This document shows, one piece after another, positions 11,372 through 57,612 of a stretch of 64,000 bases of DNA (position 1 is its first letter; every line of letters starts with the position of its first letter). The stretch lies in assembly GCA_034401795.1 (NCBI GenBank), contig CM067366.1:81938891-82002890 (forward strand). Reading direction: 5' to 3'. Below the pieces are notes generated by a model. The model saw only the letters and a program-made list of their open reading frames with translations, searched no databases and was not told where the DNA came from. Both the position numbers and the translations under genes were made by a program. This DNA comes from Chaetoderma sp. LZ-2023a. Taxonomy: Eukaryota; Mollusca; Caudofoveata; Chaetodermatida; Chaetodermatidae.

Positions 11372-11556
11372 CTCCAATGCGGTGTTGTGAGAGACTGAAT
11401 GCTGGTTTGATTGGTCCTTCAGGAACATGAGGAAGGTGACTATACAGGCTCGGCACAAACAGATGACCATCAATTTTCCCCACCTTTGATATGAGTGAAA
11501 TATTCTCAGTCACATGTGATGCTGCAAACCGCAGATGGCTAGAGACTTTACTATAT
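11372..11556 (-). CDS. MGAT4: MGAT4-type GnT-IV, exon 3 (stem to catalytic junction)
   Basis: Internal exon of 185 bases between acceptor ccttttcag (high side) and donor GGAG/gtaaat (low side). One base completes the codon from exon 2; then 61 codons are open, leaving one G. The decisive segment reads LFVPSLYSHLPHVPEG, then IKPAFSLSQHRIGG. From memory, human MGAT4A has VPSIYYHLPHLLKNEG followed by SLQPAVQIGNGRTG, and MGAT4B has LPTVFHHLPHLLAKE. This lies just before the GT54 catalytic domain, whose next exon should open with a motif like SIVMGIP. No such exon is visible to the left, so the catalytic part is outside the window. The three exons together encode about 149 residues of an enzyme usually near 535 long. 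Confidence 0.85.
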
Positions 11557-11726
11557 CTGAAAAGGAAACAGAAACAGAAAACATTATTCTGGTAAAACTG
11601 GTCTATCACACGAGGCGACTTTAACAGAAATGTAAAATATTTGACCGACTGACCGATTCACAACTCTTGCATATATACAGCTGTTAGTATGACCACAAAG
11701 TATGTCCAGACTATTGCAACAGCCAT

Positions 11727-11762
11727 GTCTGCCTGTCTGCCTGCCTGCCTGCCTGCCTGTCT
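11727..11762. repeat. (GCCT)n microsatellite
   Basis: Run of ctgcctgcctgcctgcctg with flanking imperfect units, inside intron 2. Confidence 0.85.
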
Positions 11763-11989
11763 ATTTGTATGTCTGCTCTGTTTAATGCAATAAGACATGT
11801 TCGCCTGGAGGGATCATCACCAAAGTTGGGCTATAGCAGCAACGGCTCCACTCCAAATTTCAAAATGTTTAACAGAATTTCTAATCAACTGTAATTTCAC
11901 TAAAGACAAGACATACAATTCAGACACATTCGTAATAATTGATTAAAATGTCAGATAATTGAGAGACAGATGGGATCCCTCCATTAAGA

Positions 11990-12600
11990 TGCAAGCAAAA
12001 TCTGATGCATACATTCATAATAATAGTCAGCTGGAGGCTGATATGCACCCGACGCCCCAACACCAGTACATCCCCTACATGAGTTTTTATCAATACCACT
12101 GATACAGTAAAAGTGAACGCAAATCAGTCATGCATGACCGATGCAAAAGCTTTTACCATTAGTCACATCCTTCGGTGTTTTACAATCACCCTGTCACGGT
12201 TCATCCAGTTCTCTCTCAAACTATAGGAGTTTCAGTGCCAAGATTTTTTGAAACTACATACAGAAATACTATGTTTATTGTCTCCCACCCCCCCCCCCCC
12301 CCCCCCCATCCACCCACATCAGTCACGCATTGCCAATGCTAAAAGCTTTCACACTAGGCACATCTTTGGGTGATGTACAATCATTCTGCTAAGTTTCAAA
12401 CAAGGAGTTGCAGCATCCGGGATGAATGGGACGGATGGATCTATTTATATACGGATGGATAGGATGGACTGATGAAAGGATTTAAAATTAGGCGCATGTT
12501 TGCGCGGGGGATAATCATCTAGTCACGGTTCAAATATTTCTCTCTTAAATTGTAGGGCTTGAGGAGTTGCAGCGACAAGATCTTCAGGACGTACAGACAT
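11990..12600. repeat. Degenerate array of about 195-base units in intron 2
   Basis: Three diverged units share 'gcaaaagcttt.ac', 'tcac.tc.t.gg.g.t.tacaatca' and 'gt.acggttc.' (about 12130-12215, 12325-12400, 12485-12545). A C tract of about 20 bases lies between units near 12288-12307. Confidence 0.55.
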
Positions 12601-12705
12601 AATGGATGGAATGAAAACATGCTATCCGTAGTGAATCGTGGGTATAATAATAGTAAAGATGGTTGAATCTATACATTCATACACTAGATGGCAATGCCGG
12701 CTTAC

Positions 12706-12880
12706 CCTGCATCGCGCACAGCTTGGGCAGGATGTTTGAGTAGCTGTCGACCACGCTGTTCCAATTGAGATTTCAGCTCAGCGAGGTCACGATCTTTCGT
12801 ATTGTACAGATTCTCAGCATGTTGGAGACGTTCTCGTAAATCCAGAAGCCGCTGCTCCAAGAGGTGCTCCTGAGTAACAT
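12706..12880 (-). CDS. MGAT4: MGAT4-type GnT-IV, exon 2 (coiled-coil stem)
   Basis: Internal exon of 175 bases between acceptor ttgtttcag (ending at 12881) and donor GCAGG/gtaag (12705). It is open in one frame: AT, 57 codons, GG. The peptide contains LLDLRERLQHAENLY and DLAELKSQLEQRGRQLL, heptad-like and strongly charged, as expected for the lumenal stem of a Golgi transferase. From memory, MGAT4A has LALKERLRIAEH at this place and MGAT4B LALRDRLHAAEQ, so 'LRERLQHAEN' is a good positional match. Entry phase 1 accepts the single G left by the exon at 57525; exit phase 2 accepts the first A of the exon at 11556. No interspersed repeat overlaps it. Alternative: another coiled-coil gene, but the exon 3 match argues against this. 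Confidence 0.82.
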
Positions 12881-12989
12881 CTGAAACAATGAATTAGACC
12901 AAGCCTTAGAGCATATGGACAAAATAACACTGAATATTAACATGGAAATTTGCATGTAGGATAATAAATATCTTCATGTTAAAGTAATT

Positions 12990-13410
12990 TTATTGACCCT
13001 GAATAGCTTGTAAGATGCTTCTTTGTCCTGACGCTTAGTGTCCGTTGAGTCTGGGTACCAGAGCACTGATGTTTGTGCACTCCTTTTATACTTTCTGGGA
13101 TACACTGGGTGTACCCGATTGTACCCGATGTATGTACTCGGTTTTGGTATAAGAATTATAATGTTGTAGTCGGTTTGTACCTGGTTGTCTGTGTAGGTGT
13201 ACCCGCTCAGTGGGGACTTGTGTGATTTTGTACCCGAAGTGTGGGGACTAGGTGTACCCGGTTGGTTGTGTATTGGTACGGGTGTATCCGGTTGTGGATA
13301 GTCTGTACCCGGTTGTGTGTTAATGTACAATGTAATTATAACATCTTGTACCTGGTTAGATGTTTGTACCCGATTTTGTTTTTTATTTGGAAATATTACT
13401 AGCAAAACAG
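12990..13410. repeat. Degenerate TGTACCCGG-type minisatellite
   Basis: 'tgtacccg(g/a)tt' and close variants recur about ten times at irregular spacing between about 13110 and 13375. The minus strand is open over most of it, giving a Pro/Thr/Gln-rich low-complexity peptide; I read this as a by-product of the repeat, not as an exon. Confidence 0.6.
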
Positions 13411-13591
13411 TCATAAAAGGTTAATTAAGTGGCTTTGGTCCGTTTGTTTTGGGGACCTTCCATAGTTGATCCAGACCCTTACATGTAGCATTTCGTGCCT
13501 GTGTTTAGGCTACACTACTCATTCAGAGGACTATATTCAAAATGTTATAAGATCATGATTTCCTGTAGTTTTAAAGTAACTTTATGTCTAA

Positions 13592-13779
13592 TTAACCCCT
13601 TTAACCCTTAAGTCAGCCAAAGACGGCTTCTGCAGTAGTCTTTAGAACATTTGCAGACTATGAAGACTATTTTTGAAAATTTATCATTGGAGTGACTGGC
13701 TCGATAACTGGGTCTACAAATTGATATTTTCTGAGAAAATTTTAATCTTGTTGAAGAAATTTGATAGTTAAATGGTTAA
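13592..13779. repeat. MITE family A copy, shortened right arm
   Basis: Left end ttaacccctttaaccc, usual left arm and centre 'gactggctcgataac'. The right arm is mostly missing before 'tagttaaatggttaa'. Confidence 0.7.
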
Positions 13780-13930
13780 TGATGATATACTCCATTTCAG
13801 GGTCAAGATGGCCAAAATGACTTCTGAATTGCTTTTGTGAAATGTCCATTTCTGATATAACAAAGCCAGTCATTCTAATGGTAGATTTTAACAAAAGGTG
13901 CAATGCCTTGACGCATAAAGACATAAGTAA

Positions 13931-14135
13931 CTGTTAATATTCTGGCCAACAGAAACTGGCCTCTACAGGTCTTGAGCAATATCTATATATAAGAAACAAT
14001 TTTTGAAAATTTAACACTGGAATGTTTGATGCTCAATAAATGAATCAGTTATTCCAGATGTAAATTTTCAAAAGTAGTCTTCTCTTGGCCTGCAAATGGA
14101 CATTTACTAGTTGTATAATGAAGAGAAATGCATAT
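13931..14135. repeat. MITE family A copy, diverged
   Basis: Central part 'tttttgaaaatttaacactgg ... cagatgtaaattttcaaaag' and 'cctgcaaatggacattta' are clear; the termini are worn. Confidence 0.6.
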
Positions 14136-14139
14136 TTTT

Positions 14140-14860
14140 TTTAACAATCTTAACAACTGAGGGGATACCCTCTTGAAAATACATGCTCTATATGGGATTA
14201 TGGACATTTAAATATTTTTTGTCAGAATAACCAAAACATAATTTGCTATCAAGTGAGATACCCAATGCTCATAATAATTAAGATGTTGAGAGTTATCTCC
14301 CTCAAGTCATTATCTAATTTATTATAATTTCTAAGGCTTGTAACTCTGTGGAGTTTGATATCAAATCAGCTCGATTTTTGCAACACAGATATTCGATGGC
14401 ATATGAACATCTTGACCAGGTTTGATGCTAATCTGTCCAGAAATAACAAAATATGCCACAATTATTCATGCTGGGTAGGCAAAGACAGACAGACAGAGAG
14501 ACAGATGGATGGTGGCAGATTGCTAAAATTCAGCTGACTGACAAATCAGCCGAATTAAAAAATGGTCTGTTTGCCTTGGCCTGCAAATGGACATTGAACA
14601 AGCATGAAATTTGAATTCTTTACCATAAACAGATTAAACATAAAGTAGGGCTTAAAACACCAAGCAATTATTATAAATTCCCTCAGAAATTCAGTCCTTG
14701 TTGGAATAAAATTTCAGAAATACAATGTATTCTTCATATATCGAAATCACGATGATTTCGTCTGAATTCAACCTATAGCTGATTAAGAAGCTCTCAGGCT
14801 CCATAGGCATCAAGATTTTAGGGGCTCAATGGATGAATACCATCTGTCAGTCAAGTATAT
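14140..14860. other. AT-rich intronic DNA, mostly unassigned
   Basis: Apart from the MITE fragment above there is a short 'gacagacagacagagagacag' tract near 14481-14503. I see nothing else in this stretch. Confidence 0.5.
14560..14625. repeat. MITE family A, right-end fragment
   Basis: Only 'ttggcctgcaaatggacatt' and the following AT-rich end are kept. Confidence 0.45.
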
Positions 14861-14880
14861 GATGTCATAATCAATTACGT

Positions 14881-15008
14881 CACATGGTTACCGAGCCAGG
14901 CATTCGAGTGGTAAATTTTCAAAAATAATTTTCTTTTGTCCTGTAAATGGACATTCATCAGGATGACTACAGTGGCTGGTTTTGGCCGGCTTGAAGATTA
15001 AAGAGTTA
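14881..15008. repeat. MITE family A, right half
   Basis: Starts at the centre ('gttaccgagccaggcattcg') and runs through 'cctgtaaatggacatt' to 'gattaaagagttaaaa'. The left arm is absent. Confidence 0.6.
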
Positions 15009-15019
15009 AAAGCCAAAAA

Positions 15020-15480
15020 TGACATGTACAGGGGTCTTGAGAAATGACATTTTTTAAATAACTACTTCTAAAATTTTATCACTGGCTCGATAAATGAACC
15101 AGACATTACAGCGGTACATTTTAAGCTAGAGTGGACAGTCGATCGCGCGCCATCGCAAATCTTCATGCTCCTAGGTTTGACCTTTTGACCATCCATCTGG
15201 GGTGGGGCCAGATGTAAATGTCCTCTTGCACTCGCCTATCATATGGGTAACTCACAATCCAAATCTACTTGAATTCCATCCAACGGTTTCAGAGAAGTTG
15301 TATTACAATCCATTTCCGCACAAATCGACAGATATCAGACAGATTGGCAGATGGATGGGGAGGAGAGCACAATACCCAGTTTTCTTCGAGAGATGTGTGG
15401 ATAACAATAGTCTTCTCTTGTCTTGCAAATGGTCATTCACTAAGTATAAGATGTTCTTGAGAAAGCTTGAGCATTAAATC
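15020..15480. repeat. MITE family A copy split by another repeat
   Basis: Left half at 15020-15134 and right arm at 15405-15480 ('aatagtcttctcttgtcttg') flank about 270 bases of the 'gatatgggtaactcac' repeat type. The order shows that the second repeat inserted into the MITE. Confidence 0.55.
15131..15400. repeat. 'tgggtaactcac / ttgaattc..tccaacggtttcagag' repeat, single unit
   Basis: Shares 'cgatcg' start, 'catcgcaaatc', 'gaccttttgacc', 'ggggccagatgtaaatgt' and 'aacggtttcagagaagtt' with the array at 34160-35375. Confidence 0.6.
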
Positions 15481-15540
15481 TTTCAACAACTACTCCTGTA
15501 AAATGCAGGAAATGTCAATTTCCCTTTCTCCGAGATCTAA

Positions 15541-15695
15541 CAATACTCACCATTCTGTTACTTCTGATATACAGCTGGCCTTGACAGCGGCTCTAGGATT
15601 ATAGACTTAGAAAGCTTTACCGACTCCTGGGAACCGGGTACTCGGCTCCCAACTGCCGAGTACCCGTTTACCATAGAGCTCATATTGTTTGCATA
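15541..15695. repeat. DIRS-2 inverted terminal repeat (3' side)
   Basis: Inverted match to 23528-23682. It contains the stem-loop gggtactcggctcccaac with its partner gccgagtaccc. Confidence 0.93.
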
Positions 15696-15752
15696 GCCAC
15701 CAAACAAGAGAAAACTATGGCTTGCCTCCGTGGGGCTGGGAGGCTGGGTCCG

Positions 15753-15856
15753 TAACAGAATGGTGAGTATTGTTAGATCTCGGAGAAAGGGAAATTGACA
15801 TTTCCTGCATTCTCCTTCGATCAATACTCACCATTCTGTTACTTCTGATATACACC
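15753..15856. repeat. DIRS-2 internal complementary region
   Basis: Fuses inverted copies of the two extreme ends: 'gacatttcctgcat' (left end) meets 'tctccttcgatcaatac' (right end). Confidence 0.92.
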
Positions 15857-16382
15857 AGATTTTATCAGTAACCTGGTGGGAAGGGGCAAGCCATAAATGC
15901 TAATTTTGCCCCTTGGAGAAAGATTTTAGACTTCAAACTTGACTAATGGAGACCTAAAAGGACCGTCAAGTTCACGGAACCGAATCACATTCGCGTCACA
16001 GCCCCCCACCCCCCACCCTTTTTCCTCCTAAGAAAAGGGAGAGAACTAACGAACATGTATCTCGCCTGAAAACACAAATATGCCAAGAGGGTTAACTACT
16101 CCCTGCATATTCCATGTATTAGCCTGGGAATGAGCATGAATATATAAGATGAATGAACATGATACATATACATAATACAAAAAACTCTCACTATTGAATT
16201 ACCTTATGATAATTGGACTTCAGACGTACCGCCTCCAACCATTCACCGGTTCGGCCATCAGTGGCACAATCTGGTTGACATCCTCTCGCCTGACCATGCC
16301 TGTGTCATGGGGCTATTAGGTCAGACATAGAGATTTCAGTGGATTATAATATATCAGTGATTTTACATATAATGTTGTTAGC

Positions 16383-17364
16383 TGTTATGACCAGAGCCTG
16401 TGTGAAACCAAGTGCGACGATGCCCAGTGTATAGTGGATCAAGGACAATAGCCCAATTACCTGTCAGAACAATCAATATACCTATAAGCCGGTAGTAAGG
16501 ATAATATCTTGAGTCTTGCACCTACCTGTAGATTGATTCATGTAGGCTTATTATTCTGTTTGTATTAAGTGTGTTTATAATCTGATGACCCTTTTCACTC
16601 TGAATTCCCACAAACATAGTTTTGAAATATTGGAATATTAAGCCTGCAGAATATTTTAGAAATGATTTGACTGAAAGTTGTTGCTGCCTAAAGCAGAGAA
16701 AACTTTCACTTTGATTATTTTCAAAATAGTCATCAGGATTTACTAATACTTAATCTTTGTAGGGAAAATATCTACTGCTAGTTAGAATTATTAAAGCGGT
16801 TAACTATATTATATTTCTCATTCATGTCTATAAATCCTGTATAATTAAAATGAACTATTATAAATTGATTTAAATTAGTTAATTCTTATAAATGCTTTTA
16901 GACATGTTTTGGAATCCAAAACATGTCTCTTGACTACATTTATGGCGTCACTGTTTTCATAGATACCACTTGTTATAAAAGACAGATGATTTTGTAAATT
17001 AGGGAGAGAGCTTTAGAGTTAGCATTAGAGACAGATAGGGTAGAGAGCATTAGACTTAGAATTAGAGAGACAGCTAGAGATTGATTGAGAGCTAGATTTA
17101 GAGATACAGAGTTAGTCTTTAGAGTTAGATTGTTAGAGTTATATTATTAATTAGTGTTTATAAAGTTTATTTTGAATCAAGTATATATTTGAAGTATAGT
17201 TCTGGATAGTAATAAAAGCTTAATAACAGTTATAGTTGAAGAAGATCTTACTTATTGTCTATTCGAGTATCTTCAACTGTCGTCTCATCCTGAAGTGTTT
17301 ACGACCTATTCCCACTCGGCTAATCCCCCGTGTTTCGAGATAGGTGGCGAATAGCGACATAACA
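16383..17364 (+). mobile_element. Probable solo LTR of an LTR retrotransposon inside DIRS-2
   Basis: About 980 bases bounded by tgttatga and cataaca (TG...CA with a 7-base inverted end). It has a TATA-like ttataaaag near 16974, an aataaaag polyadenylation-like signal near 17212 and a degenerate ttagag-rich tract (about 17000-17165). It sits in the 3' non-coding part of DIRS-2 and accounts for the extra length there. I could not find a convincing target duplication, and no internal retroelement genes are present. Confidence 0.45.
16645..16736. repeat. Diverged foldback family B copy
   Basis: 'gcagaatattttagaaatga' with 'gttgttgctgcctaaagcag' and a worn inverted half ending 'ttttcaaaatagtcatcag'. 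It lies inside the probable LTR. Confidence 0.5.
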
Positions 17365-17425
17365 CCTGCTTTAGGTTCTTTTCTTACCAAAGTGAAAAAA
17401 GGGTGAAGAGCAGTGTGGTCACTAA

Positions 17426-18470
17426 CTATCGTTTCAAAACAGCTAAAGCGAGTGGATTGGCTGAGTCTGACACATCCCTCAGATAGTAATCCGTGAATGA
17501 GGACTCACAGTGCCATTGTGCAATGGCCATGATGTCCTCTAACGGAACACCATTGTAAAGGGCGGTCGAGGCGGCTATTCCTCTGACATCGTGTGCCCTT
17601 ACGCCTTGCACCTGGTGCCCAGTCGCCATCTCGTGAGTAGTCTGAATGCATTCGACCACCCAACGAGAGATAGTATCCATGGATGCGGCGCCATAAGACT
17701 TTTTATGGCAGATCCACAGATGTCTATCGTTCGACCGCAACGAGTCAGTCCGTTTCTTGTACTTAGTCAAAGCACGGACCGGGCACCAGACACTGGCATC
17801 ACGATCAAACCTAGCTAACTTCGGTATAATGATCGGTTTGCCGGGATATCTCAAAGATTGGTTCTTTGACATAAACTCTGCTCTTGGCAGAAGACGCAGA
17901 CCTTCTCCAGAAACAATAAATCGGTTCCTCTCTGCCGAAAGCGCATGGATCTCACTGCGCCTTCTAGCTGAGGAAGCTGCCAATAGAAAGACCGCCTTTA
18001 GAGTCAAATGCTTTAGACTAGCCGAACGCAACGGTTCGAAAGGGTGCTTGGCCAGTACATTAAGCACTAAAGATAGACTCCAGGCTGGAATGACTACCGG
18101 TTGTCTCGGGCGGAGATTGCTCATTCCCTTCAACATCACATTTAACTGGGCCACCTCTGGACTATACCTGTTGGCTAGACAAGGGATAACTGATGCCAAA
18201 GCTGACTTGTATCCAGCAACTGTGACGGGAGCTAGTCCTGAAAAGAACAGCTCACAGAGAAAGCCTGCTATTTGCTGAATAGTGGATTGAAAGGTATCAA
18301 TACCCTTTTCTTCACACCAGTCTGCAAATCTGTTAACCTTGTTGTTATATGACTTGAAGGTTGACCTCCTTCTCGCAGCCGCGATGAAATCAGCAGCCTG
18401 TCGAGAAAAGCCTTCCGACGTGGAACGTTGTTTGATAACATCCACGCAGTCAATTTGAACATTTCGGGAC
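17426..18470 (-). CDS. DIRS-2 tyrosine recombinase region
   Basis: Signatures parallel DIRS-1: VQIDCVDVIKQ at the start of the core-binding part, SARRRSEIHALSAE, AHDVRG (HxxR) and ESSFTDYYLRD (catalytic Tyr). It integrates the circular DNA form. Confidence 0.9.
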
Positions 18471-20431
18471 GCTCGTGTAGGAAGCGTCCCTTGGCCTGGG
18501 AGATTATGTTCGGAATCTCGGGCAACTGCACAGGATTTTCCACCAGCAGATCTAGAAGATCCGTGAACCACGCCCTGCTCGGCCAATACGGCGCTATTAG
18601 CAGGACCAGACACGGTTCCTCCCTGACCTTCACCAATACCTTCGGTAGAAGAATGGTGGGTGGGTACGCGTAAGCGTGCATCCCTCTCCAGCTTATCGCC
18701 CGAGCGTCTGTATCGACGGCATTTGGATCTGGAATCGGCGAGACATATGTCATGATTTGAGCATTTTCCTTTGTGGCGAACAAGTCCACGTTGGGTTTGC
18801 CCCAATGCTCGAAGATCCGTCGCAGAACCGGAGGATTGAGGGACCATTCTCTTGGCAGGATTCTCTGTCTGCGAGACAAAGCATCTGCCAGAATGTTCAA
18901 TATGAGCTGCTTTCAAAACAATCGAGTAATTCCTGCACCATTGAATCAAGTGCCACACCCTGATACACAGAGTGGGCGACCTGGTCCCACCTTGGCGATT
19001 TATATATGATACTACTGTCGAATTGTCCGACCGTATCAATATCACCTTGCCCCTGATCATCGGAAGGAACTCTTCCAACGCCAGTTCCACTGCCATCATT
19101 TCCAACAGATTGATATGCAGCTGACTCTCCGGGAGAGTCCATGTGCCCGAGACCTGGTGTTCTCCCAGGCAGGCACCCCACCCTTCCAGCGATGCATCCA
19201 TGTAGACGGACAGCTGGGGTTGGGGTAGGTGCAGCGAAACCCCTAATAGGAGATTCTGACGCCGTTTCCACCATAGAAGATGCGATATTATCGGCTCCAA
19301 AACTGGCACCAGTTTTGACAGGGGTTCTGTTCTCTGTTTCCACAGAGACATCAGATACAACTGGATAGGCCTTCGCATTAGAGCAGCGTACGGGATAACC
19401 TGATCCATGGAGACCATCATGCCCAGCATCTGAAGGAACCGCCTCGCCTGAATGTGGTTTCCCACTCGAAAACTCTTGAGGATGGCTAACAGAGACACCA
19501 CTCTGGGCTCTGACGGGTAAACCCTGCCCTCCTCGAGGTCGAATCGCATCCCCAAATAAACGAAATGTTGAGTGGGCGTCAACTCGGATTTCTCCTTGTT
19601 GACTATCCAGCCTAGATCTGAAAGTAACTTCAGAGTCAGTAACTTCAGAGTCAGAGCAGTATCCACGTTCAACCTGGCTGCCGAGTCTGCCTTGAGCAGC
19701 CAGTCGTCTATGTAGGTGTGTAGAGCCACGTTCTCTTTTCTGAGAAATGCTGTCACCGCAAGGACCATTCTTGTGAAAACCCTCGGAGCTGTCGACAGGC
19801 CAAACGGGAGAACTGTAAACTCCCATACTTGATTCTGAAACGCAAATCTCAGAAACCTGTGCCAACTCCGATTCATAGGAATGTGGAAATATGCATCTTT
19901 CAGATCGATCGATACACACCACATTCCTTTCCTCAATCCCGCCATTACCGACCTCGGCGTTTCCATCTGGAACCGAGGCGTATGGATAAACCAATTTAAT
20001 GGCCTGAGATTGAGTATGGGTCTCCATCCCCCTGTGCTCTTGGGGACAATGAACATGTTTGAATAGAAGCCTGGAGTGTTCCGGTTTGCTGGTTTTATTG
20101 CTCCCTTCAGAAGCAAACCCGACACTTCCTTTTGAACGGCTTCTAACTTGTCTGGCTCCCTTGGTACGGGTGTCCAGACAGGTGCCAAAGACAGATTTTG
20201 TGGTGGAAAGTCCCACCACTCCGGCATGTAACCCTGGGATAACCATCCCAGGACCAGACTGTCTGACGTCACACCTCGCCAGGCCTCGACGAAACGCATG
20301 AGCCTTCCACCCACCATAGATGCCTCGATGTCTAACGGGGTTGTCCGGCTCGCAGTCCGCTCCCCCCCCTCTTTCTTAACGAGAGAGAGTGAGAACCATT
20401 TCGTTCTAGGCACGACGGGTATAACTGGCAC
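18268..20431 (-). CDS. DIRS-2 reverse transcriptase, RNase H and MT-like region
   Basis: RT boxes seen: WRPILNLRPLNWF, DLKDAYFHIPM, LPFGLSTAPRVF and HTYIDDWLL. RNase H boxes: YMDASLEGWG, LLEMMA and IRSDNSTVV. The MT-like block has NVDLFATKEN, AYAYPPTILLP and LLIAPYWPSRAW. Domain order is as in DIRS-1. Confidence 0.9.
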
Positions 20432-20488
20432 CGCTGTTCCTGTCGCACAGGCGCGGTCCAGGCGGATATGAAGGGAGCTTTCGTACCC

Positions 20489-22620: not shown

Positions 22621-23527
22621 AAGCACAAACCTACAATAAACAAGCGGAACGAGACCCGGATGGAAGGCAGACAATTAATTTTCAAATAATTTGACTCATA
22701 AATTAACTGTAACCCTCCCGCACCCCACCCCGCCACGTTACAACAACGATCGCATTGATTATGACGACAAGAACGAGGCGGGCATTAAACACACCCATAA
22801 TAGATCCTCCAGGATGTGTAATGGCTCCAGGAATCATATCGCATAGCATTCGGGGTATATTTACTAATCAATATAAATTATACTCCTAACGAAAGCAGCA
22901 CGATATGTGAATAAAACAACAAAATGTATAACAAACTGCTGTATCACACGGTAAAACCGCAGACCATGCATCTACTCAAGAATTTTGAAACCACCGATCA
23001 TTGCAAACCGATCGTGATCGCACGTAAACTTGATCATTCTAAAGTTTCCGGTACCATTTTTAGTACGCAGCACCCAGAACAAGATGCGCGAATTAATGAA
23101 AAATTTTCTTCACATAAACATCCGAGCAACCGGGTGTGACGTCACCCGCTTGGATCCTACGGAGAACGACGTCAGCCGATATTCGTGTTAGAAATACCGT
23201 AGCATAACACCTATTTTCATATCTGCCGATCGCCTGTTGGGGGTTAAAGAAGGCGATCGTCTGGCATATATCGTTGTTAGCACACGTCCCAGATTCTATG
23301 GGGTCAGAAATTGGAACATGCGACACAGCGAAATTTAGAGACCTAAGTCTTTTAACTATGGATAATAAAGAACGATACAACCTGGTTATCTTCGGCGGTA
23401 TTCTCCATAGTATCCTTAGTTAATCCTTTCACGAACACACAAACTATCACAGATTAAAGACTTAGATTTTCTGTCACAAAAAACACTAAAATCCTCAATG
23501 CAGAAAGCATGTATTTCTCTTGTTGCT

Positions 23528-23682
23528 ATGCAAACAAGAATGAGCTCTATGATAAACGGGTACTCGGCAGTTGGGAGCCGAGTACCCGGTTCCCAGGAGT
23601 CGGTAAAGCTTTCTAAGTCTATAATCCTAGAGCCACTGTCAAGGCCAGCTGTATATCAGAAGTAACAGAATGGTGAGTATTG
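23528..23682. repeat. DIRS-2 inverted terminal repeat (5' side)
   Basis: Partner of 15541-15695. The outer edge reads cagaatggtgagtattg, the counterpart of the gggaggtaagtatg motif of DIRS-1. The internal hairpin is at about 23558-23588. Confidence 0.93.
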
Positions 23683-23717
23683 ATCGAAGGAGAAAGTCTA
23701 TTCTTTACAATTTATAG

Positions 23718-24057: not shown

Positions 24058-24100
24058 CTGTTCGTCTGCCATGAGATAGAGATACGGGGGGGGGGGGGGG

Positions 24101-26570: not shown

Positions 26571-26579
26571 AGAGGCACA

Positions 26580-27130: not shown

Positions 27131-27134
27131 CACA

Positions 27135-28216: not shown

Positions 28217-28238
28217 ATTTAACCCCTCTTATGTCAAC

Positions 28239-43700: not shown

Positions 43701-43708
43701 CACATTCT

Positions 43709-44502: not shown

Positions 44503-44689
44503 TTTGTTGTGTTACAAAACTGCAGATCTCATTTGGAACACCCTAAAAGCCTGCATGTTCAAAATGTGATCTTGTGTAATAAATTTGATACAAAATTACA
44601 ACTCAGTTGAGATCCTCAATCCATCATCAAGGTCATGTAATTTCACACGTAATTTTTCATTCCTAGCTTCTATGCAGGCACCTTCTGTT

Positions 44690-47600: not shown

Positions 47601-49855
47601 CACTCCCTCTCAGTGTGTTAACCTGTCTTCAGTCCCTCTCATTGTGTGTTATCCTGTTTCCACTCCCTCTCAGTGTGTCATCCTGTCTCCAGTCTCCCTC
47701 ATTGTGTGTTATCCTGTCTCCAGCCTCTCTCAGTTTGTCACCCTGTCTCCAGTCCTTCTCATTGTGTGTTATCCTGTCTTATCTCTATCTCAGTGTGTCA
47801 TCCTGTCTCCAGTCCCTCTCATTGTGTGTTAATCTGTCTCAAGCCCCTCTCAGAGTGTGTCATCCTGTCTCCAGTCCCTCTCAGAGTGTGACATTCTGGC
47901 TCCAGTCCCTCTCAGAGAGTGTCATCCTGTCTCCAGTCCCTCTCAGGGTGTCATCCTGTCTCCAGTCCCTCTCAGTGTCATCCTGTCTCCAGTCCCTCTC
48001 AGTGTGTCATCCTGACGCCAGTCCCTCTCAGAGTGTATCATCAGTCACCCTCAGAGAGTGACATCCTGTCTCCAGTCCCTCTCAGTGTCATCCTGTCTCC
48101 AGTCCCTCTCAGAGAGTGTCATCCAGTCTCCAGTCCCTCTCAGAGTGTGTCATCCTGTCTCCAGTCACTCTCAGAATGTGTTATCTTGTCTCCAGCCACT
48201 CTCAGAGTGTCATCCTGTCTGCAGTCCCTCTCAGAGAGTGTCATCCAGTCTCCAGTCCCTCTCAGAGTGTGACATCCTGGCTCCAGTCCCTCTCAGAGAG
48301 TGTCATCCTGTCTCCAGTCCCTCTCAGGGTGTCATCCTGTCTCCAGTCCCTCTCAGTGTCATCCTGTCTCCAGTCCCTCTCAGAGTGTGTCATCCTGCCG
48401 CCAGTCACTCTCAGAGTGTATCATCAGTCACCCTCAGAGAGTGACATCCTGTCTCCAGTCCCTCTCAGTGTCATCCTGTCTCCAGTCCCTCTCAGAGTGT
48501 GTCATCCTGCCGCCAGTCACTCTCAGAGTGTATCATCAGTCACCCTCAGAGAGTGACATCCTGTCTCCAGTCCCTCTCAGTGTCATCCTGTCTCCAGTCC
48601 CTCTCAGAGATGGCCATCCAGTCTCCAGTCCCTCTCAGAGTGTGTCATCCTGTCTCCAGTCACTCTCAGAATGTGTTATCTTGTCTCCAGCCACTCTCAG
48701 AGTGTCATCCTGTCTGCAGTCCCTCTCAGAGAGTGTCATCCTGTCTGCAGTCCCTCTCAGAGACTGTCATCCAGTCTCCAGTCCCTCTCAGTGAGTGTCA
48801 TCTGGTCTCCAGTCCCTCTCAGAGTGTGACATCCTGTCTCCAGTCCCTCTCAGTGTCATCCTGTCTCCAGTCCCTCTCAGAGAGTGTCATCCAGTCTCCA
48901 GTCCCTCTCAGAGTGTGTCATCCTGTCTCCAGTCACCCTCTGAGTGTGTTATCCTGTCCCCAGTCCCTCTCAGAGTGTCATCCTGTCTCCAGTTCCTCTC
49001 AGAGTGCTATCCTGTCTCTCACATAGTGTCATCCTGTCCCCAGTCCCTCTCATTGTGTGTTATCCTGTCTCCACTCCCTCTCAGGGTGTTATCCTGTCTC
49101 CACTCCCTCTCAGTGTGTCATCCTGTCTCCATCTCCCTCATTGTGTGTTATCCTGTCTCCAGCCCCTCTCAGTGTGTCATCCTGTCTCCAGTCCTTTTCA
49201 TTGTGTGTTATCCTGTCTCAACTCCATCTCAGTGTGTCATCCTGTCTCCAGTCCCTCTCATTGTGTGTTATCCTGTCTCAAACCCCTCTCAGTGTGTTGT
49301 CCTGTCTCCAGTCCCTCTGTGTGTCATCCTTTCTCCAGTCCCTCTCAGAGTGTGTTAGCCTGTCTCCAGTCCCTCTCAGAGTGTGTTAGCCTGTCTCCAG
49401 TCCCTCTCAGAGTGTGTCATCCAGTCTCCAATCCCTCTCAGAGTGTGTCATCCTGTCTCCAGGCCCTCCAAGAGTGTGTTAGCCTGTCCCCAGTCCCTCT
49501 CAGAGTGTGTTAGCCTTCTCCAGTCTCTCTCAGTGTGTCATCCTGTCTCCAGTCCCTCTCAGTGTGTCATCCTGTCTCCAGTCCCTCTCAGTGTGTCATC
49601 CTGTCGCCAGTCCGTCTCAGAGTGTGTTAGCGTGTCTCCAGTCCCTCTCAGAGTGTGTTAGCCTGTCTCCAGTCCCTCTCAGAGTGTGTCATCCTGTCTC
49701 CAGTCCCTCTCAGAGTGTGTTAGCGTGTCTCCAGTCCCTCTCAGAGTGTGTTAGCCTGTCTCCAGTCCCTCTCAGAGTGTGTCATCCTGTCTCCAGTCCC
49801 TCTCAGAGTGTGTTAGCCTGTCTCCAGTCCCTCTCAGAGACTAAATATGAGGGTT
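44690..49855. repeat. 5.2-kb minisatellite with 27/29/31-base units
   Basis: About 170 units of the type tcatcctgtctccagtccct + ctcag + a variable tail (tg, agtg, agtgtg, agagtg). Unit lengths step by two bases. Variant units mark higher-order repeats: 'tctctcacatagtgtcac' near 45580, 45935, 47510 and 49013, and 'tcagtcaccctcagagagtg' near 45310, 46380, 46790, 47270, 48045, 48425 and 48545. Long open frames on both strands here are by-products of a stop-poor unit and are not genes. Confidence 0.95.
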
Positions 49856-49929
49856 ACATGGTTAATAAGCATGGAAACTGCGATTATATTATAATAGTAA
49901 TGTGTGATAGTCATAATAGTAATGCACCC

Positions 49930-50079
49930 AAAAATTGATCAATCAAAATTCTGAATAGATGTTCTAAAGCCTACCACTATAGAATCCATTTAGTTAAATT
50001 TGGTTATAATATGTCAAGCAGCTAAGGAGGAGTAGCATTTTGGCCATTTCCAGTAGATTTTTCATAAAATCCCGCCACA
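49930..50079. repeat. 150-base repeat unit (family F), left flank of DIRS-4
   Basis: 'aattgatcaatcaaaattct', 'gcctaccactatagaatcc' and 'tcaagcagctaaggaggagt', as in the array at 60855-61955. Confidence 0.8.
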
Positions 50080-50460
50080 GACCCCCCCCCCTGGCGGGTT
50101 GGTCTGTTGTTTTATTAACCACTATAAAACATACTTACCGTTCAATCACTACTTGCTAAATCAATTATCTGCATTTAGCTACCAGAATAAGGTTTTTATG
50201 CTTGCATACACTCCTCCCCATGCCTATTCCTATAAATATGGACCCTCAACCAGGCTACTGGTTAGGTCCATCTCCAGTATATTAACTGATATAGACTGGC
50301 ACCAGTCTGTACTCACTCCATAGTGACGCCTGTCACTAAGCGTGCTTGCGCATGCGCACTGGAGCCCAAATAGGAAACAGATTCACTTTTCTGAATTTAA
50401 GTGCCAAATATTATAGGCAAATTCTCAAATCAATTCCACGCGGGGTGGCCGAGGGCAGGT

Positions 50461-50594
50461 CATAGTGATTGAATGGTAAGTATGTTTTTATAGTGGTTAA
50501 TAAAACAACAGACCCACCCGCAAGGGGGGGTCTGTGGGGGGTTGTTATTACACCACAAAAACATCCATTACCGTTCAATCACTACTTGCTAAAC
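50461..50594. repeat. DIRS-4 internal complementary region
   Basis: First half mirrors the left end (gtggttaataaaacaacaga against tctgttgttttattaaccac). The second half begins with 'tctgtggggggttgttatta' and should be the image of the lost right end. Confidence 0.85.
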
Positions 50595-50815
50595 CCATAG
50601 ATTTGGTCAGTTCCCCACTTAAAACATTAGGTGGGAGGCGATTTGAGAATCAGCAAACAAGGGTAAAAATCAAACCAATCTTATCCAAATGTTAATAACA
50701 TAACATAATAGTGCATTTAAATCAATCACACCGTGATTATCAAAGAAGGAAAACTTGAACTTAGAGATAAATAAAAACCAAAATAAACTCTCACCATTTC
50801 TTACAGACGCCCAGG

Positions 50816-51180
50816 CTAACGAAAATGGCAAGAAGTGCTTCTTGGTAAATGGTCTTCAGCTATTTTGGTTAAAATCGTAATATTACGAAAGAAGGAGGCT
50901 GCTGCACTCTGATCTTTCAGATAAAAGGTTGTAAAAGAGGATTCAGATTTCCATCCTGCAACCTGCATGACTTCATCTAAATACGAACCGGCAAAAAGTG
51001 CAAAAGAGGAAGCCATTCCTCTAACATCGTGAGCTTTAATATGGGAGAGATTAATTTGTTCCGGAGAAGCAATCTCGTAACAAAGCTTAATCGTCTCCCA
51101 AATCCATCAGGATATCGTAAACTTTGAGACCGGCTTAGAATACTCTTCCGCATAAGAAAACCATAAAAGGGACGGAACAA
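50816..51180 (-). pseudogene. DIRS-4 tyrosine recombinase remnant
   Basis: Short recombinase-like stretches remain, the clearest being GWKSESSFTTFYLKD, equivalent to the catalytic-Tyr region of DIRS-1 and DIRS-2. Not functional. Confidence 0.8.
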
Positions 51181-51240
51181 ATCTTTTGAAATCAGATCGC
51201 TGTTTGTACATTCTTTGACACAGTAAATGGTGATAGAAGG

Positions 51241-51815
51241 TTTGTAACATGGGCAATAGTGAAATATTTGTTTTCTAAGGAATAATTAGTAAGTTCCAAT
51301 CATCAATGATTGTTAGTCAATGTGGTGTTACTTCCCAAGTTTTCAGTTACTCAATGACTAATTTAACTGAGAAAGTTATAGATTGTGGTAAGAAAGCAGC
51401 AGAACCAATAATATATAAATCCATTCGTTTACCTCTGGTCACGAAATAACAATACGGTTACAGATAAACAATCCGATAATCTCAATCATCAATGCGTGTC
51501 TTTGTTTACAATTTCCGAGAAAACTTACTCTTCAAATTACTAGCATTAATTAGGCCGAGTTGAGATGCGAAATCTGTCACATATATCGGCATCCCACTTC
51601 CCGATTGGCAATATGGTTAATCTAGTCATCCGTCTACTTTTTAGTTTGTGGCGTACAAGAAATATGCATAGATTGACATATTTGAACACACAACTATTTT
51701 GCAAAACAGCTGATCGTGTCACCATCTTGGCAGAAAAATTAATATTCATGATTTCCCGACCAATCAGACGTGTCAATCTTATAGCGCGTGATACGGTGAC
51801 GCCAATAACGGGTAA
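51241..51815. other. Unassigned DNA between DIRS-4 fragment and family F array
   Basis: Both strands are open for about 100 codons at 51546-51876, but I recognise no domain and see no splice support. Confidence 0.4.
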
Positions 51816-52395
51816 AAAAAAACCTCCAAATGGCCACAAAAAATTGACTGACCAAAATTCTGACAAGAAGTTCTAGAGCCTACAAGTATAGAATTCTTCC
51901 AGCCAAATTTGGATAAAATCCACCAAGAGGTTCACAAAATCTATGATTTTCACCAAAACAATTTATCCATTAAAATTCTGAATACATGTTTAGGAGCCTA
52001 CCGTGATAGGGTCCTGTCTAACCAACTAGGGTTGAAATCTTTCATGCGGTTACTGATGAGTAGCGTTTAGACAATTTCCGATAAATTTTTCATAAATTCT
52101 AAGGATTTCACAAAAACACTTGACCAATTAAAATTCTGTATATACCTTCTGAAGTATAACCCCATAAGGTCATTCCAGCCAAAGCACATGAAGTAAGCTG
52201 AAATCTGCCAAGTGGTTAATAAGGAATAGAGCTTTGACAATTTCCACTAAATTTTTAATAAAATCAAAGATTTTCACACAAATAAATTGACCAATCAAAA
52301 TTCTGTATAGGTACATGTTCTGAGACCAAGTCTGAATTCAGTTGAAATCTGCCAAGCGGTCCATCCAGCCAAATTAGGTTGAAATTCGCTTAAAA
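51816..52395. repeat. Family F array, about four diverged 150-base units
   Basis: Repeats of 'ttgacca.tcaaaattctg', 'gagcctac..ata', 'ggttgaaat' and 'taaaatc.a.gattttcac'. Confidence 0.75.
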
Positions 52396-52619
52396 GACAT
52401 GTTAAAAGACATGAATTGATGTGAAAATTTGAAATGTGAAAACATCCGTGAGAAAAGGAACTCATGGCATTACCTAAGGTACTGCTTTAACTACAATATT
52501 CTGACACCAAATCAACAGGAATTCAACAATACAGATCAAATGTACATATAAATGACAAATTCCTTACCATGTATTTCTGTTCACTATGTTCACTGTAATT
52601 TTACTGAATTTCTTCTACT

Positions 52620-52730
52620 GTTTAAGGCAGCAACAGTTTTCACTCAAATTACTTTCAAAATAGTCAACAGCTGGTTCATGTACAGTAAGTGACAAGATAC
52701 TGAGATTTCAGTGATGAAAAGGTTTTACTA
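52620..52730. repeat. Right half of a family B element
   Basis: 'ttaaggcagcaacagttttc' and 'ttactttcaaaatagtcaac', then 'tcagtgatgaaaaggtttta'. The last part matches the right edge of the element at 30750. Confidence 0.5.
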
Positions 52731-52822
52731 TTTTATTCCTGCACTAGAACTCAATTAAATTTGTTTTAGTATCGCGTTACCAATATATGAGTGTGGACTG
52801 CAAGACAACAATGGACCTTTCC

Positions 52823-53190
52823 ATTTTTAGCTATGCCCCGCCCATCACTAGCTAAGCTCCACCCACACCTCGCCGTGTTTGGATTGATCGATCGATCCCC
52901 GAATGCCCTAGCTATCAATTTCCTGAAAACTATACAGGGAAGCTGTTGAGTATTTTGTAACTAATTTGACTGGGTGCTGTTGCTGCCTATGACAGCAACA
53001 GCGCCCAGTCAAATTAGTTTCAAAATATTCAACAGACTATTTATTAAATAGTAAAAGCAAACAATTTGTACAACAACACATAGACCGTTTTCAAATATGC
53101 ATTCGTGACGTACTTATCGACGTCATTCATGAAGTCATCCATTATGATGTCATTCTAGACACCGCGTAGATGATTATGACATCATATGAT
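52823..53190. repeat. Composite C-B repeat, copy 2, with near-perfect hairpin
   Basis: 'gttttagctatgccccgccc' and 'gatcgatcgatccc', then the family B hairpin 52932-53036 (ctgggtgctgttgctgcc / ggcagcaacagcgcccag-like), then 'attatgatgtcat' stretches. Confidence 0.8.
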
Positions 53191-53219
53191 GGGTACATAC
53201 AAGTACTCCGGAAAGCTGA

Positions 53220-53640
53220 ATTACATGTACTTTAGGCTCTGCCTCCAAGTGTTGAGGGTGCGGCCAGGGTGAAGTTACTCGTCTGATTGCAGATTGTGAG
53301 ACAATGTTTACATTAGGCTCCGCCACCATGGTGCGGTTGGGGTGGAGTCAGTGGGTGATGGAGCATGCTAAACCTAATTGTTTATGTGAGATACCCATAA
53401 TGATTGCTGCTACTGAGATGACTTTTACATTAGGCTCTGCTTCACCCCCCCCCCCCCCCCCCCATCCCCTCAACCAGCCACCCCCTAACGTGCTAATGGT
53501 GCGTGGTGAGGGCGGTGCTGCAGATTATCAAGGTTGGCCGAAAGCATGGAGATTTGTGATAGACAGCAACATCGTCCACGAAAATTGTTGAAAAATATAC
53601 ACTAGTTTCTTTGATATTGAAACAGTAACAGATAGAATAT
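53220..53640. repeat. 'acattaggctc.gc' repeat pair plus hairpin arm
   Basis: 'tttacattaggctc' recurs at about 53305 and 53428, and a shorter 'tttaggctctgcc' lies at 53230. A C tract lies at 53448-53463. The right end shares 'gacagcaac.tcgtccac' and 'ttgttgaaaaatatacac' with the hairpin at 25028. Confidence 0.55.
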
Positions 53641-53799
53641 TGACATCAGAGAGGTACGGGTTAACAATCATACATGATATTCAGGGGTCACATGGGACAC
53701 GCTTTCATTACTTCTTAGGCTCCCAAGTTATATATTGGAGTATTTAACTTCATAAGGACCCTTATGAAAATCCCTGCCACTGTCAGTTGGTAAATGTGA

Positions 53800-53991
53800 C
53801 AGACTAAATCAAGCTGATAAGAAAATTTTCAATTACAAACTAAGAGATTATTTTTGAAAACTTGTCATTGGAATGATACACTTGGTCATTATTTCAGTGG
53901 CAAATTTAAAAAAATAGTTTTATTATGTTCTGCAAAGGCACATTTCTCAAATGCATTGACGAAGCTATTTTTGCCAGCTTGAGAGTTAACC
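53800..53991. repeat. MITE family A copy, diverged
   Basis: Its right end shares a TTAA with the next copy, so two copies sit head to tail. Confidence 0.65.
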
Positions 53992-54222
53992 CTTTAACAC
54001 TCTAATCAACCAAAAACGCCTTCTGCAGTGGTCTTGAGAAATATCCATTTGCAGACCAAGAGAAGACTATTTTTTTTAATTTACCACTGGAATGACTGGC
54101 TCGAAAGCCGAGCCAGTCATTCCAGCGGTAAATTTTTTTAAATAATCTTTTGGTCTGCAAATGGACATTTTCTATGCGAAAATTGAAATATTCTTGAACA
54201 AAATTTGAGGGTTAAAGAGTAA
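53987..54222. repeat. MITE family A copy, well preserved
   Basis: ttaaccctttaacactctaa at the left; perfect hairpin 'actggaatgactggctcg' / 'cgagccagtcattccag'; right end gagggttaaagag. Confidence 0.85.
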
Positions 54223-54487
54223 AATTAGCAGCATTGATCAATACAGAGCCAGAAAAATGTCTGCAAGCAGATTTATGTACAGCTTATAACACATGTCACA
54301 AGGCCCGGTCATGGAGAGCAGTTTAAATTTCATTAGCAGTGCACTAGAAATTGTCATGGCTACTCGCCCAACCCCCTCATAACCCAGCAATGAGTGGTCC
54401 TTAATCATGCCATAGGTTAATGGGTTAAGAATGGATGATTAATTTGATTAGCAAATTCTATGTGTATGAAATCTGATCCGAATATGA

Positions 54488-54552
<65 letters not shown>
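54488..54552. repeat. (TA)n microsatellite, about 65 bases
   Basis: Uninterrupted alternating TA. Confidence 0.98.
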
Positions 54553-54554
<2 letters not shown>

Positions 54555-54561
54555 AAATCTA

Positions 54562-54650
54562 AATCCTTAAAGTATATGTCCATTTGTAAGATATTTAGAG
54601 AAGACTATTTTGGAAATGTGACCACAGGAATCACTGGCTCATTTATCCAG
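54562..54650. repeat. MITE family A, left half
   Basis: 'atatgtccatttgtaag' to 'cactggctcatttatcc'; it ends at the centre. Confidence 0.55.
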
Positions 54651-54789
54651 CATAGGATTTAAAGAACCACCATACCATGTTCCTCCAACTGACGCCCCAA
54701 AGAAGATACAATTGTTGTCACACGCTATAGCATATGTCATTGTCCAGTCATGCTATGAAACCTAAATCGCATACACTGGTGTCATGGAG

Positions 54790-55213
54790 TGGTCAGACCG
54801 ATGAATCTTATAAAGGAAATCTCATCTTATCTGGCTTACCATATACTAACCATTCAGGTGATAGAATTTGCCACCCCTGATACATCCCTGACATTTTAGC
54901 TTTTTATCATGCAGCCAAGGAAAGATATTCAATCTTTAATAGATAAATGTTGCTACCAGCCTATGATGGCTGTCATGATTTACTTTTCCACCAATCAGAA
55001 AAAGCCTAGCATGTCCATCTCAGGAATTACGCTCTGTCATAGAGGTGCCAGCTATAGTTTGGGATAGAAGCAATCATACAGGTAAGCTGTTGAATATTTT
55101 AAAACTAATTTGACTGGAAGTTGTTGCTGCCATAGTCAAGTTAGTTTCAAAATATTCAATGAGATGAGTATTACATAATAAAGAATGTAATGCATTGGAA
55201 CTTACATGACATC
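54790..55213 (+). repeat. Family N element, copy 1, first part
   Basis: Inverted match to about 58550-59010: 'aggtgatagaatttgccac', 'gctttttatcatgcagcc', 'gcctatgatggctgtcatga' and 'cttacatgacatcacac'. It includes a family B hairpin at 55082-55160. The match stops at 'tatcgctt' and resumes at 57022. Confidence 0.7.
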
Positions 55214-55894
55214 ACACATTATCGCTTAAAGGGGAACACAAGAAGGGTCACCATCCTTTGCATAAAATATGCAGTTCTATAGTAGAGCCCATATTTAAGC
55301 TACTGTGTATAAATTTCCTGCGACATTTATATATAAACCCAATTAAAATGGTGTTAAAAAATGCTATGTTACTATAATTTTCTGCGAGTTAATTAAACCT
55401 ATGATGTCATAGGTTGAATCCCATCCGATGAGAACCATGATAATGGCACTCTGAAGACAGGAGTGCATGAATTTGGATGCTGATATCTCTATCGGTGATA
55501 ATGCTATCGACATTATTTATATATGTACAGATTGAAGAGACACAATCTCAAATTTATTGAATTTATTTGTTATTTTCATACATTAGTTGTCGAACCATAA
55601 GATGGTGGTTTTCTATGAGATGCCTGCCAATTACTTGACTATTACAATATCTCAGGAAGTTTTGAGGCTAGTATGAAAAACATAAGTATTTAAAGATGTA
55701 TTGGGATGTATGTAAGAACTATTTAGAACCTCATATTAATAGGTGAAACCTTAATAGCATTATCTGCCATAGCGCCTGAGTGCGAGTGTTGATTTAAATG
55801 TCCCAATTGTACTGATATACCTATTATATCGCATCATTCATTTATCGCAAGATCAAAACTTGATGTCAAAATCGGCACCATCCGAAAAATCAGA
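55214..55894. other. Unassigned DNA left of the hAT-like MITE
   Basis: AT-rich, no repeat partner and no supported frame seen. Confidence 0.45.
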
Positions 55895-55902
55895 CAACGG
55901 AC

Positions 55903-56956
55903 TAGGGCTGCACGGTTTGGCTTACAGCCATATCGGTTTCGATATGACTTCATATCGGTTTTAACCGAATATCGGTTTTATGGACATGAAGCAAAAAATT
56001 TAAATGATAAAAATTAGCACGAAAACAGAACGTATTTTCACGCCCTGATACATTTGTAATGTTTTACCCCTTTAAAGCTTAATAAAACTTATAATATCCA
56101 TCATCGCGGGAGTGAAATTATTAATTAGACCGCCTAAATATTACGCACAGTTAAATAAACATCGTTTATTTTGTCAAAATTAATCATAAATCAGCAAAAC
56201 AGGTTGCGAAAAGACGTAAATCACGCGATTATGATGTAATTATCTCCCTTTCTTCTTTCATTTCCAATTCGTCCCGAGGACGAAATCATGCCTTGAAGAA
56301 AATATTAACTGTAATATTGCGATCGCGAATTTCATAAGTTAATATGATATTGTGTATAGAAGATAACGTTTTAAAAACGGTTTGAGTAATAATTTTATTT
56401 AAAATTATATCCTAATCAGCAAAATGTATTCAGCATTATATTTATTCGCCAGATTTTGATGCATTCGGACGATTTAGTGTTGGGACGACTTTGCATTATG
56501 TTAATTAGCCGGTGACGTAAATAAAATGGATGCCGTTGTTTAGAAATGTTTTCCCCAATACAAATTTTAATGACAAATTCCCACATTAGTATTGTGTTTT
56601 ATATTGCAAATTTATCTGAGACTACCAGAGAAAAGATGAGTGGATATTTATTTAATTAATTCGCTGCTTGATTTCTCTCGGCGTACAGCGAGTTACATGG
56701 AGTTACACAATATGCGCAATTGGGGCCACGTTCAATTATTAGTTGCCCCGAACGTAGCTTAATGGAAAGTATGGCCATTATTATTCATTACGATTTTCAT
56801 GCCCGTTAGTATCTTTTATTTTTAACAATCCTGATACGAAAAACCGAAAATATGTTCATATTCGGTTTTTCGATATTTATTTTTTACAATCAGTTATGAA
56901 ACCGTCAGTGGTGGATATCGGTTTTAAATATGGTATCGGTATATCGCGCAGCCCTA
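55903..56956. mobile_element. hAT-like non-autonomous transposon with 8-bp target duplication
   Basis: Ends are inverted repeats beginning tagggctgc(a/g)cg, with 'atatcggttt' subterminal motifs on both sides. Flanks are CAACGGAC (55895-55902) and CAAAGGAC (56957-56964), an 8-base duplication with one difference, the size made by hAT transposases. At 1054 bases without a transposase frame it is non-autonomous. The interior (about 56080-56180) carries the 'aaattattaat..gaccgcctaaata' arm seen at 10092. Confidence 0.85.
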
Positions 56957-57021
56957 CAAAGGACTGTTATTATATATTCTTCAGCATTTCCGTAAATGTA
57001 GTTTCTATATTCCTAACACCG

Positions 57022-57135
57022 CTGAGTCAAAATGGTGGCGATCACTGTTCCACATTTACTCGACATTACAAAGCGGATAATTGTGATCAATACAGAAAAG
57101 GGAATGTGACACAATATGAATGATATGGAATCTAT
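57022..57135 (+). repeat. Family N element, copy 1, second part
   Basis: 'gagtcaaaatggtggcgatc', 'aaagcggataattgtgatca' and 'aatgtgacacaatatgaatg' match the inverse of 58440-58548. It continues the copy broken at 55213. Confidence 0.7.
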
Positions 57136-57242
57136 AAACCATAATTTATCTGTATAATACAATACTTGAGATGAAATTAGTGTCCCTCTAACTCCTTAAA
57201 TCAGAATATCAGATATCATAATTTCTTTTAGTGTAAAAAACA

Positions 57243-57312
57243 TTTTGTTGAAAATTTAAAATTAATTTGACTGTAAGACATTTCAATCAGACTACTTTCA
57301 AAATCTTCGACA
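57243..57312. repeat. Family B copy, short
   Basis: 'gttgaaaatttaaaattaat' with 'actttcaaaatcttcgacac'. Confidence 0.5.
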
Positions 57313-57524
57313 CTTTTCCTCCATGGCTGTCTTCAAACATAGATATTGGGAAATATTCTGAAGTTGAAATCAATTTGACAATATGGCACATTATCTTCCC
57401 GATAACAGTTTTCATGTACGGTTGCGATTTCGTGGATGAAGGGAAAAACAGTCAATATCTGAGAGATGAGCACCAAATGAAATGTACATTTAGTTCATAA
57501 GTGAACATAAAACATATACCGTAC

Positions 57525-57612
57525 CTGGTTTCAGGACAACAGACGTCCACAGTATCGGTATGGCAACGACAGCCAAAAGCACCCAGACTACGGTGGTATA
57601 TCGTCGACGCAT
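57525..57612 (-). CDS. MGAT4: MGAT4-type GnT-IV, first coding exon (membrane anchor)
   Basis: Start of a probable alpha-1,3-mannosyl-glycoprotein 4-beta-N-acetylglucosaminyltransferase, the medial-Golgi enzyme that adds a beta-1,4 GlcNAc branch to N-glycans. Seen: ATG at 57612, then 29 codons giving a basic tail (MRRRYTT) and a hydrophobic stretch (residues about 8-27, VVWVLLAVVAIPILW), a type II signal anchor. The exon ends AAACCAG followed by gtacgg, a good donor, leaving one base (phase 1). Known family: vertebrate MGAT4A/B begin MRLRNGT and run straight into a membrane segment. The leftover G joins the AT that opens the exon at 12880 to make an Asp codon, so phase supports the link. By itself the exon is too short to name; the call rests on exons 2 and 3. 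A short upstream ATG frame (MAAEAGC then stop) precedes the start. Confidence 0.72.

Follow-up and report, generated by a model that had tools for sequence, protein, structure and literature searches.

The window analysed here, a stretch of 64,000 nucleotides (nt) from chromosome 8 of the deep-sea worm-mollusc Chaetoderma sp. (Caudofoveata, Mollusca), holds three small exons on its minus strand, separated by introns that carry a variety of mobile elements (Table 1). Read together with the sequence to the left of the window, this locus is almost certainly the 5' part of an MGAT4A/B/D-type gene, which would encode a beta-1,4-N-acetylglucosaminyltransferase IV (GnT-IV; CAZy family GT54) and whose first intron would be spliced out whole, its repeats being passengers. 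Very probably, the three small exons form the true beginning of this gene, an ordinary gene for N-glycan branching. Its product adds a member to an enzyme family already known, and no new mechanism is raised by it.

Gene structure and identity of the product

A search of the whole assembly (2,753 contigs, 2,438,752,110 bases) with the MGAT4 catalytic-family profile returned eight matches, four on chromosome 8 (107,653,829 bases) and four on chromosome 12 (199,972,391 bases). Those on chromosome 8 are exon-sized, lie on the strand of the gene and fall at most 13.1 kb to the left of the window; those on chromosome 12 are larger. The lectin-domain family gave two matches on chromosome 8 and three on chromosome 12. 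By reading the DNA between the MGAT4 profile matches left of the window, we built a model of 13 exons and 561 codons (1,686 nt including the stop), with consistent phases, no internal stop and GT-AG boundaries at all 12 introns. The gene spans 85.3 kb from ATG to stop (C8:81996502 to 81911239) and extends 27.7 kb beyond the left window edge. Introns 1-12 measure 44,644; 1,149; 12,925; 563; 2,319; 4,030; 983; 2,004; 874; 10,417; 431; and 3,239 nt.

Exon 3 joins exon 4, an MGAT4 catalytic exon 1.55 kb beyond the left window edge (C8:81937336), in matching phase, and the ten same-strand exons that follow exon 3 complete the stop-free frame of 561 codons. Because of this in-phase join, and of the ten exons that complete the open frame, exon 3 is not a chance frame. 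Exon 2 is compatible with both of its neighbours and aligns with the stems of human MGAT4A and MGAT4B (the human MGAT4A, MGAT4B and MGAT4C sequences used for comparison in this work were typed by hand). An earlier note on this DNA had proposed these three exons, with GT-AG boundaries and matching phases, and they were found at the places it gave; the GT54 exons that it advised looking for to the left of the window exist, on the same strand and in phase with exon 3. Its 44.6-kb first intron also stands in the model, with the reservation that exon 1 is very likely but not proven (see below).

Table 1. Gene parts and repeats in the window, numbered from its first base
Feature	Position	Strand	Description
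Exon 1 (candidate)	57525..57612	-	ATG, 29 codons and one further nt; short basic tail followed by a predicted membrane anchor, MRRRYTTVVWVLLAVVAIPILWTSVVLKP
Intron 1	12881..57524	-	44,644 nt, GT-AG, phase 1; junction 57525/12880
Exon 2	12706..12880	-	Coiled-coil-like stem
Intron 2	11557..12705	-	1,149 nt, phase 2; junction 12706/11556
Exon 3	11372..11556	-	End of stem, including VPSLYSHLPH; finishes in phase 1
Intron 3, part	1..11371	-	Whole intron 12,925 nt, running on left of the window
DIRS-A	2753..9968 (about)	-	DIRS-1-like, full-length; inverted terminal repeats, internal complementary region, reverse transcriptase and RNase H open reading frames; in intron 3
DIRS-B	15502..23696 (about)	-	DIRS-1-like, full-length; in intron 1
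DIRS-C	50071..51208 (about)	-	3' fragment with the end of a recombinase open reading frame; in intron 1
Tc1-type transposon	40665..42304	-	337-codon open frame, TA target duplication; in intron 1
31-bp minisatellite	44706..49839	.	About 173 copies; in intron 1
hAT-like non-autonomous element	55903..56956	.	1,054 bp, short terminal inverted repeat TAGGGCTGC, imperfect 8-bp duplication GTCCTTTG/GTCCGTTG; in intron 1
Old interspersed repeat	12991..13570	-	Contains TATAAAAGG, with AATAAA at its edge; same sense as the gene, 110 nt short of exon 2

The modelled protein matches the MGAT4 conserved (catalytic) region, Pfam PF04666, over residues 136-396 (336.5 bits, 1.2e-100, cut-off 51.5), and the MGAT4 C-terminal (lectin) domain, PF23524, far above cut-off (151.7 bits, 1.7e-44). 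Matches in PDB, all named GnT-IV, cover the lectin region at residues 402-558 (7xtl, 2.8e-31; 7vmt, 3.2e-29; 7xtm, 1e-22). A DXD-type motif, EDD, is conserved at residues 276-278, within QLEDDIIAK. The GlcNAc-site residues of the mouse GnT-IVa lectin domain are reported as Y394, W410, D445 and W513 (PMC9296478); mapped by hand on the PDB alignment, all four are conserved here, as Y421, W437, D472 and W547. From its N-terminus, the predicted protein has an anchor, a stem with VPSLYSHLPH, an EDD-bearing catalytic domain and, at the C-terminus, a lectin domain.

Identity to the hand-typed human sequences is 47% for MGAT4B, 44% for MGAT4A and 30% for MGAT4C. A comparison of eight sequences gave one split, with 100/100 support, that places the window gene with MGAT4A and MGAT4B and apart from MGAT4C and the four chromosome 12 copies; the window gene is the sole A/B-type copy among the GT54 matches found. 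The MGAT4-type identity and the GnT-IV order of tail and anchor, stem, VPSLYSHLPH and catalytic domain, both claimed in the earlier note, are supported by the two Pfam domains and by this grouping, and the comparison with MGAT4A/B that it suggested gave the 44-47% identity above. Searched alone against PDB and Pfam, the N-terminal part gave chance-level matches, mostly to coiled coils (best E 1.2 and 0.018), so that the N-terminus is not assignable by itself and the exons left of the window decide. The chromosome 12 copies are MGAT4C-like; two of them, L003 and L004, lie 169 kb from each other and are close duplicates, and a third, L001, has an open frame that does not extend into the lectin domain. 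Scans for Rfam families and tRNAs in the window returned no matches.

Repeats in and around the gene

The Tc1 element and the minisatellite that had been placed in intron 1 do lie there, but not the three DIRS elements claimed for it: intron 1 contains DIRS-B and the fragment DIRS-C, and DIRS-A sits in intron 3. Intron 10, beyond the window, has a fourth piece, DIRS-D, and further DIRS pieces occur upstream of the gene (window numbering, about 80.1-84.0 kb). All four DIRS found in the gene, and the Tc1 element, are on the gene's own strand.

Both full-length elements have inverted terminal repeats and an internal complementary region, which we take to be the hallmark of DIRS-1-like elements. 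The paired stretches are 2791-2992/9957-9761 (95% identical) and 3101-3145/9968-9924 (100%) in DIRS-A, and 15524-15713/23696-23514 (92%) and 15810-15854/23694-23650 (100%) in DIRS-B. The reverse transcriptase matches (PF00078) exceed the cut-off (6.6e-22 in DIRS-A, 5.6e-21 in DIRS-B); the RNase H matches (E 0.0016 and 0.00013) fall below it, as does the weak match to a SAM-like N-domain that is the sole hit of the recombinase reading frames (E 0.0083 and 0.0018). Among the best 40 of 5,464 candidates scored for DIRS-A, 40 full-length matches (DIRS-A included) were 100% identical over 1.2 kb, and there was one further match of 79 bases; the scored candidates are presumably the closest ones, and show that near-identical copies exist, not how many. 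For DIRS-B, 39 other copies were 94-98% identical (best 40 of 2,757 candidates). It is possible, if rather unlikely, that DIRS-A derives from a DIRS lineage that is currently spreading, and that its insertion is segregating in the population. In that event, comparing alleles with and without DIRS-A would show, as a natural experiment, how well a gene for a Golgi enzyme bears the recent arrival of a 7.2-kb retroelement in sense orientation.

The Tc1 element was inserted at a TA within an older repeat, a related copy of which, upstream of the gene and beyond the window (about 78318-78321), has the empty site. Among the best 40 of 834 candidates, 39 other full-length Tc1 matches were 97-99% identical, and two were short. 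The 1,054-bp element is presumably hAT-like, judged by the features of that class. A high CpG ratio at 55.5-57 kb was considered as a promoter and rejected, as it mostly overlaps this element. The old repeat beside exon 2 has 42 other matching stretches, 68-82% identical (best 40 of 610 candidates), and could in principle act as the start or end of transcripts there. Upstream of the gene, a 45-bp array at 62770-63941 comprises 26 copies that are 99% alike, and the 383-codon open frame to which it gives rise is probably meaningless.

Identified repeats account for 18.1 of the 44.6 kb of intron 1 (41%), a lower bound from a hand-picked list (DIRS-B, DIRS-C, the Tc1 element, the minisatellite, the hAT-like element, a 43-bp array and the repeat beside exon 2) that is not directly comparable with the 55.8% of PMC10810820. 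For the large genome of Chaetoderma sp., that source gives 55.81% transposable elements, with DIRS at 4.05% (64,436 pieces, 99.0 Mb). Other Golgi enzyme genes of the genome are also widely spaced: stretches adjoining in the profile are 13.2 and 15.1 kb apart in an MGAT5-type gene and 10.4 kb apart in an MGAT1-type gene. None of these gaps, which are not known to include a first intron, reaches 44 kb. In eukaryotes it is reported as general that first introns are longer (PMC2518113). In our judgement, which is not a test, intron 1 is ordinary for its genome. The earlier view that its repeat load is noteworthy is weakened, since one of the three DIRS elements belongs to a different intron, and long introns and abundant repeats mark this genome. 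The whole 44.6 kb would be transcribed and spliced out, and its DIRS, Tc1, hAT-like and satellite content would be passenger sequence gathered in a genome more than half of which is transposons.

The first exon and alternative readings

In the 71,120 bases that precede exon 2 there are 70 candidates that run from an ATG to a donor in phase 1. An anchor-like stretch occurs in seven of them, from four places, and among these seven exon 1 ranks first in hydropathy and in donor strength and joint first in N-terminal charge (+3). If exon 1 is right, its anchor has a 17-residue Kyte-Doolittle mean of 2.64, with a charge of +3 ahead of it. Exon 1 alone of the 70 starts with MRxR, presumably also the start of human MGAT4A and MGAT4B, and its peptide matches a single place in the genome. 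An in-frame TAG at 57636-57634, 21 nt before the ATG, leaves the frame without a further-upstream start within exon 1. We conclude that 57525..57612 is very likely, though not proven to be, the true first coding exon. A seven-codon upstream frame at 57657-57634 (ATGGCGGCGGAGGCTGGTTGCTAG) shares the reading frame of the exon 1 start, and its start context is the better of the two by the Kozak rule.

Several observations weigh against the model. Exons 1 (29 codons), 5 (50 nt) and 13 (30 nt) are too short for proof by similarity, and the latter two are its least certain parts: exon 5 was the top-scoring candidate (30, with the next at 25) under the guidance of hand-typed human peptides and one composed peptide, and exon 13 was picked by eye from a pattern list. 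There are 13 coding exons, compared with the 14-16 reported for vertebrate MGAT4A/B/D genes (PMC12616123). The assembly searched is not identical to the 5,340 sequences and 2.45 Gb given in PMC10810820; chromosomes 8 and 12 are equal in length, to the base, between the two. With respect to exon 1, a better donor is present in eight of the 70 candidates, and plain alignment to the human N-termini fails to single it out, as six candidates score higher. These figures, and the four places with an anchor-like stretch, would fit a gene that is real but has its first coding exon elsewhere, nearer exon 2 or further upstream, in which case 57612-57525 would be a chance frame and the first intron would have another length. 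Three of the six better-aligning candidates share one place, 61539-61566, with a stronger donor; they lack a basic tail, however, and have a lower hydropathy (1.2-1.4 versus 2.64). Of the three remaining anchor-like places, two are inside DIRS-B, and the third, at 29919, combines a weak donor with the lack of a basic tail. Taken with the MRxR start and the single genomic match of the exon 1 peptide, these properties make a different first exon improbable.

The share of DIRS sequence counts against an ordinary intron as well: it makes up 23.2 of the 85.3 kb of the gene (27%) and 21% of intron 1, versus 4.05% genome-wide (PMC10810820). With all four DIRS and the Tc1 element in gene sense, the load could be seen as exceptional and functional, for instance in slowing transcription or holding enhancers. 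By number, however, four DIRS pieces in the gene stand against an expectation of 2.2 (probability of at least four, 0.19), the gene was chosen post hoc, the sharing of one strand by all five elements has a two-sided p of 0.06 (computed by hand), and gaps of more than 10 kb also occur in the other Golgi enzyme genes mentioned above; we consider a functional load very improbable. Slighter still is the chance of a pseudogene in decay, with transposons breaking up the locus. The many insertions, one of them with near-identical copies elsewhere, would fit such decay, but neither a stop nor a frameshift interrupts the 13 joined exons, 12 of 12 introns are GT-AG, the active-site and lectin-site residues are conserved, and no other A/B-type copy is present among the GT54 matches found. 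An intact MGAT4A/B/D-type gene with a long, repeat-bearing first intron is thus the reading that we prefer.

Significance and comparison with known systems

For a caudofoveate mollusc, the analysis provides a complete gene model of a GnT-IV of the A/B/D type, bridging introns at which automatic annotation could easily split it. The authors of the genome report that gene prediction was hampered by the high transposon ratio and long introns (PMC10810820); their own annotation may already contain the gene. For the annotation of such genomes, the lesson is to look for short anchor exons tens of kilobases upstream. Both GT54 groups have sequences in the Chaetoderma genome.

In the same assembly, outside the window, both COX1 matches of the genome (L022, L023) lie in long frames on one contig, C18 (4,762,156 bases). 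The one that was read adjoins a second oxidase subunit gene, and its best protein matches, 67-68% identical, are from Gammaproteobacteria; from its sequence, C18 looks bacterial. SUP05 is described as the dominant gut bacterium of Chaetoderma sp. (PMC10810820).

The retroelements conform to the DIRS-1-like type. DIRS-A and DIRS-B share with it their inverted ends, internal complementary region, and reverse transcriptase and RNase H reading frames, with no unusual feature seen; their putative recombinase-like reading frames have weak SAM-like Pfam hits.

According to PMC12616123, GT54 comprises two groups, one (A/B/D) whose vertebrate genes have 14-16 coding exons and another with 2-3. The window gene resembles the MGAT4A/B/D group (PF04666 with PF23524/CBM94) in domain order, the EDD motif, the lectin-site residues and the 44-47% identity to the hand-typed human MGAT4A and MGAT4B; its coding exons are many, but at 13 they fall short of the vertebrate range, and one A/B-type copy was found in Chaetoderma in place of separate A and B. 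It is not a member of the MGAT4C/E/F/G group. The four chromosome 12 copies (L001-L004), by contrast, side with human MGAT4C, and their catalytic domain lies in one large open frame, like the published 2-3-exon group. The division between chromosomes 12 and 8 thus mirrors the two GT54 groups described in PMC12616123.

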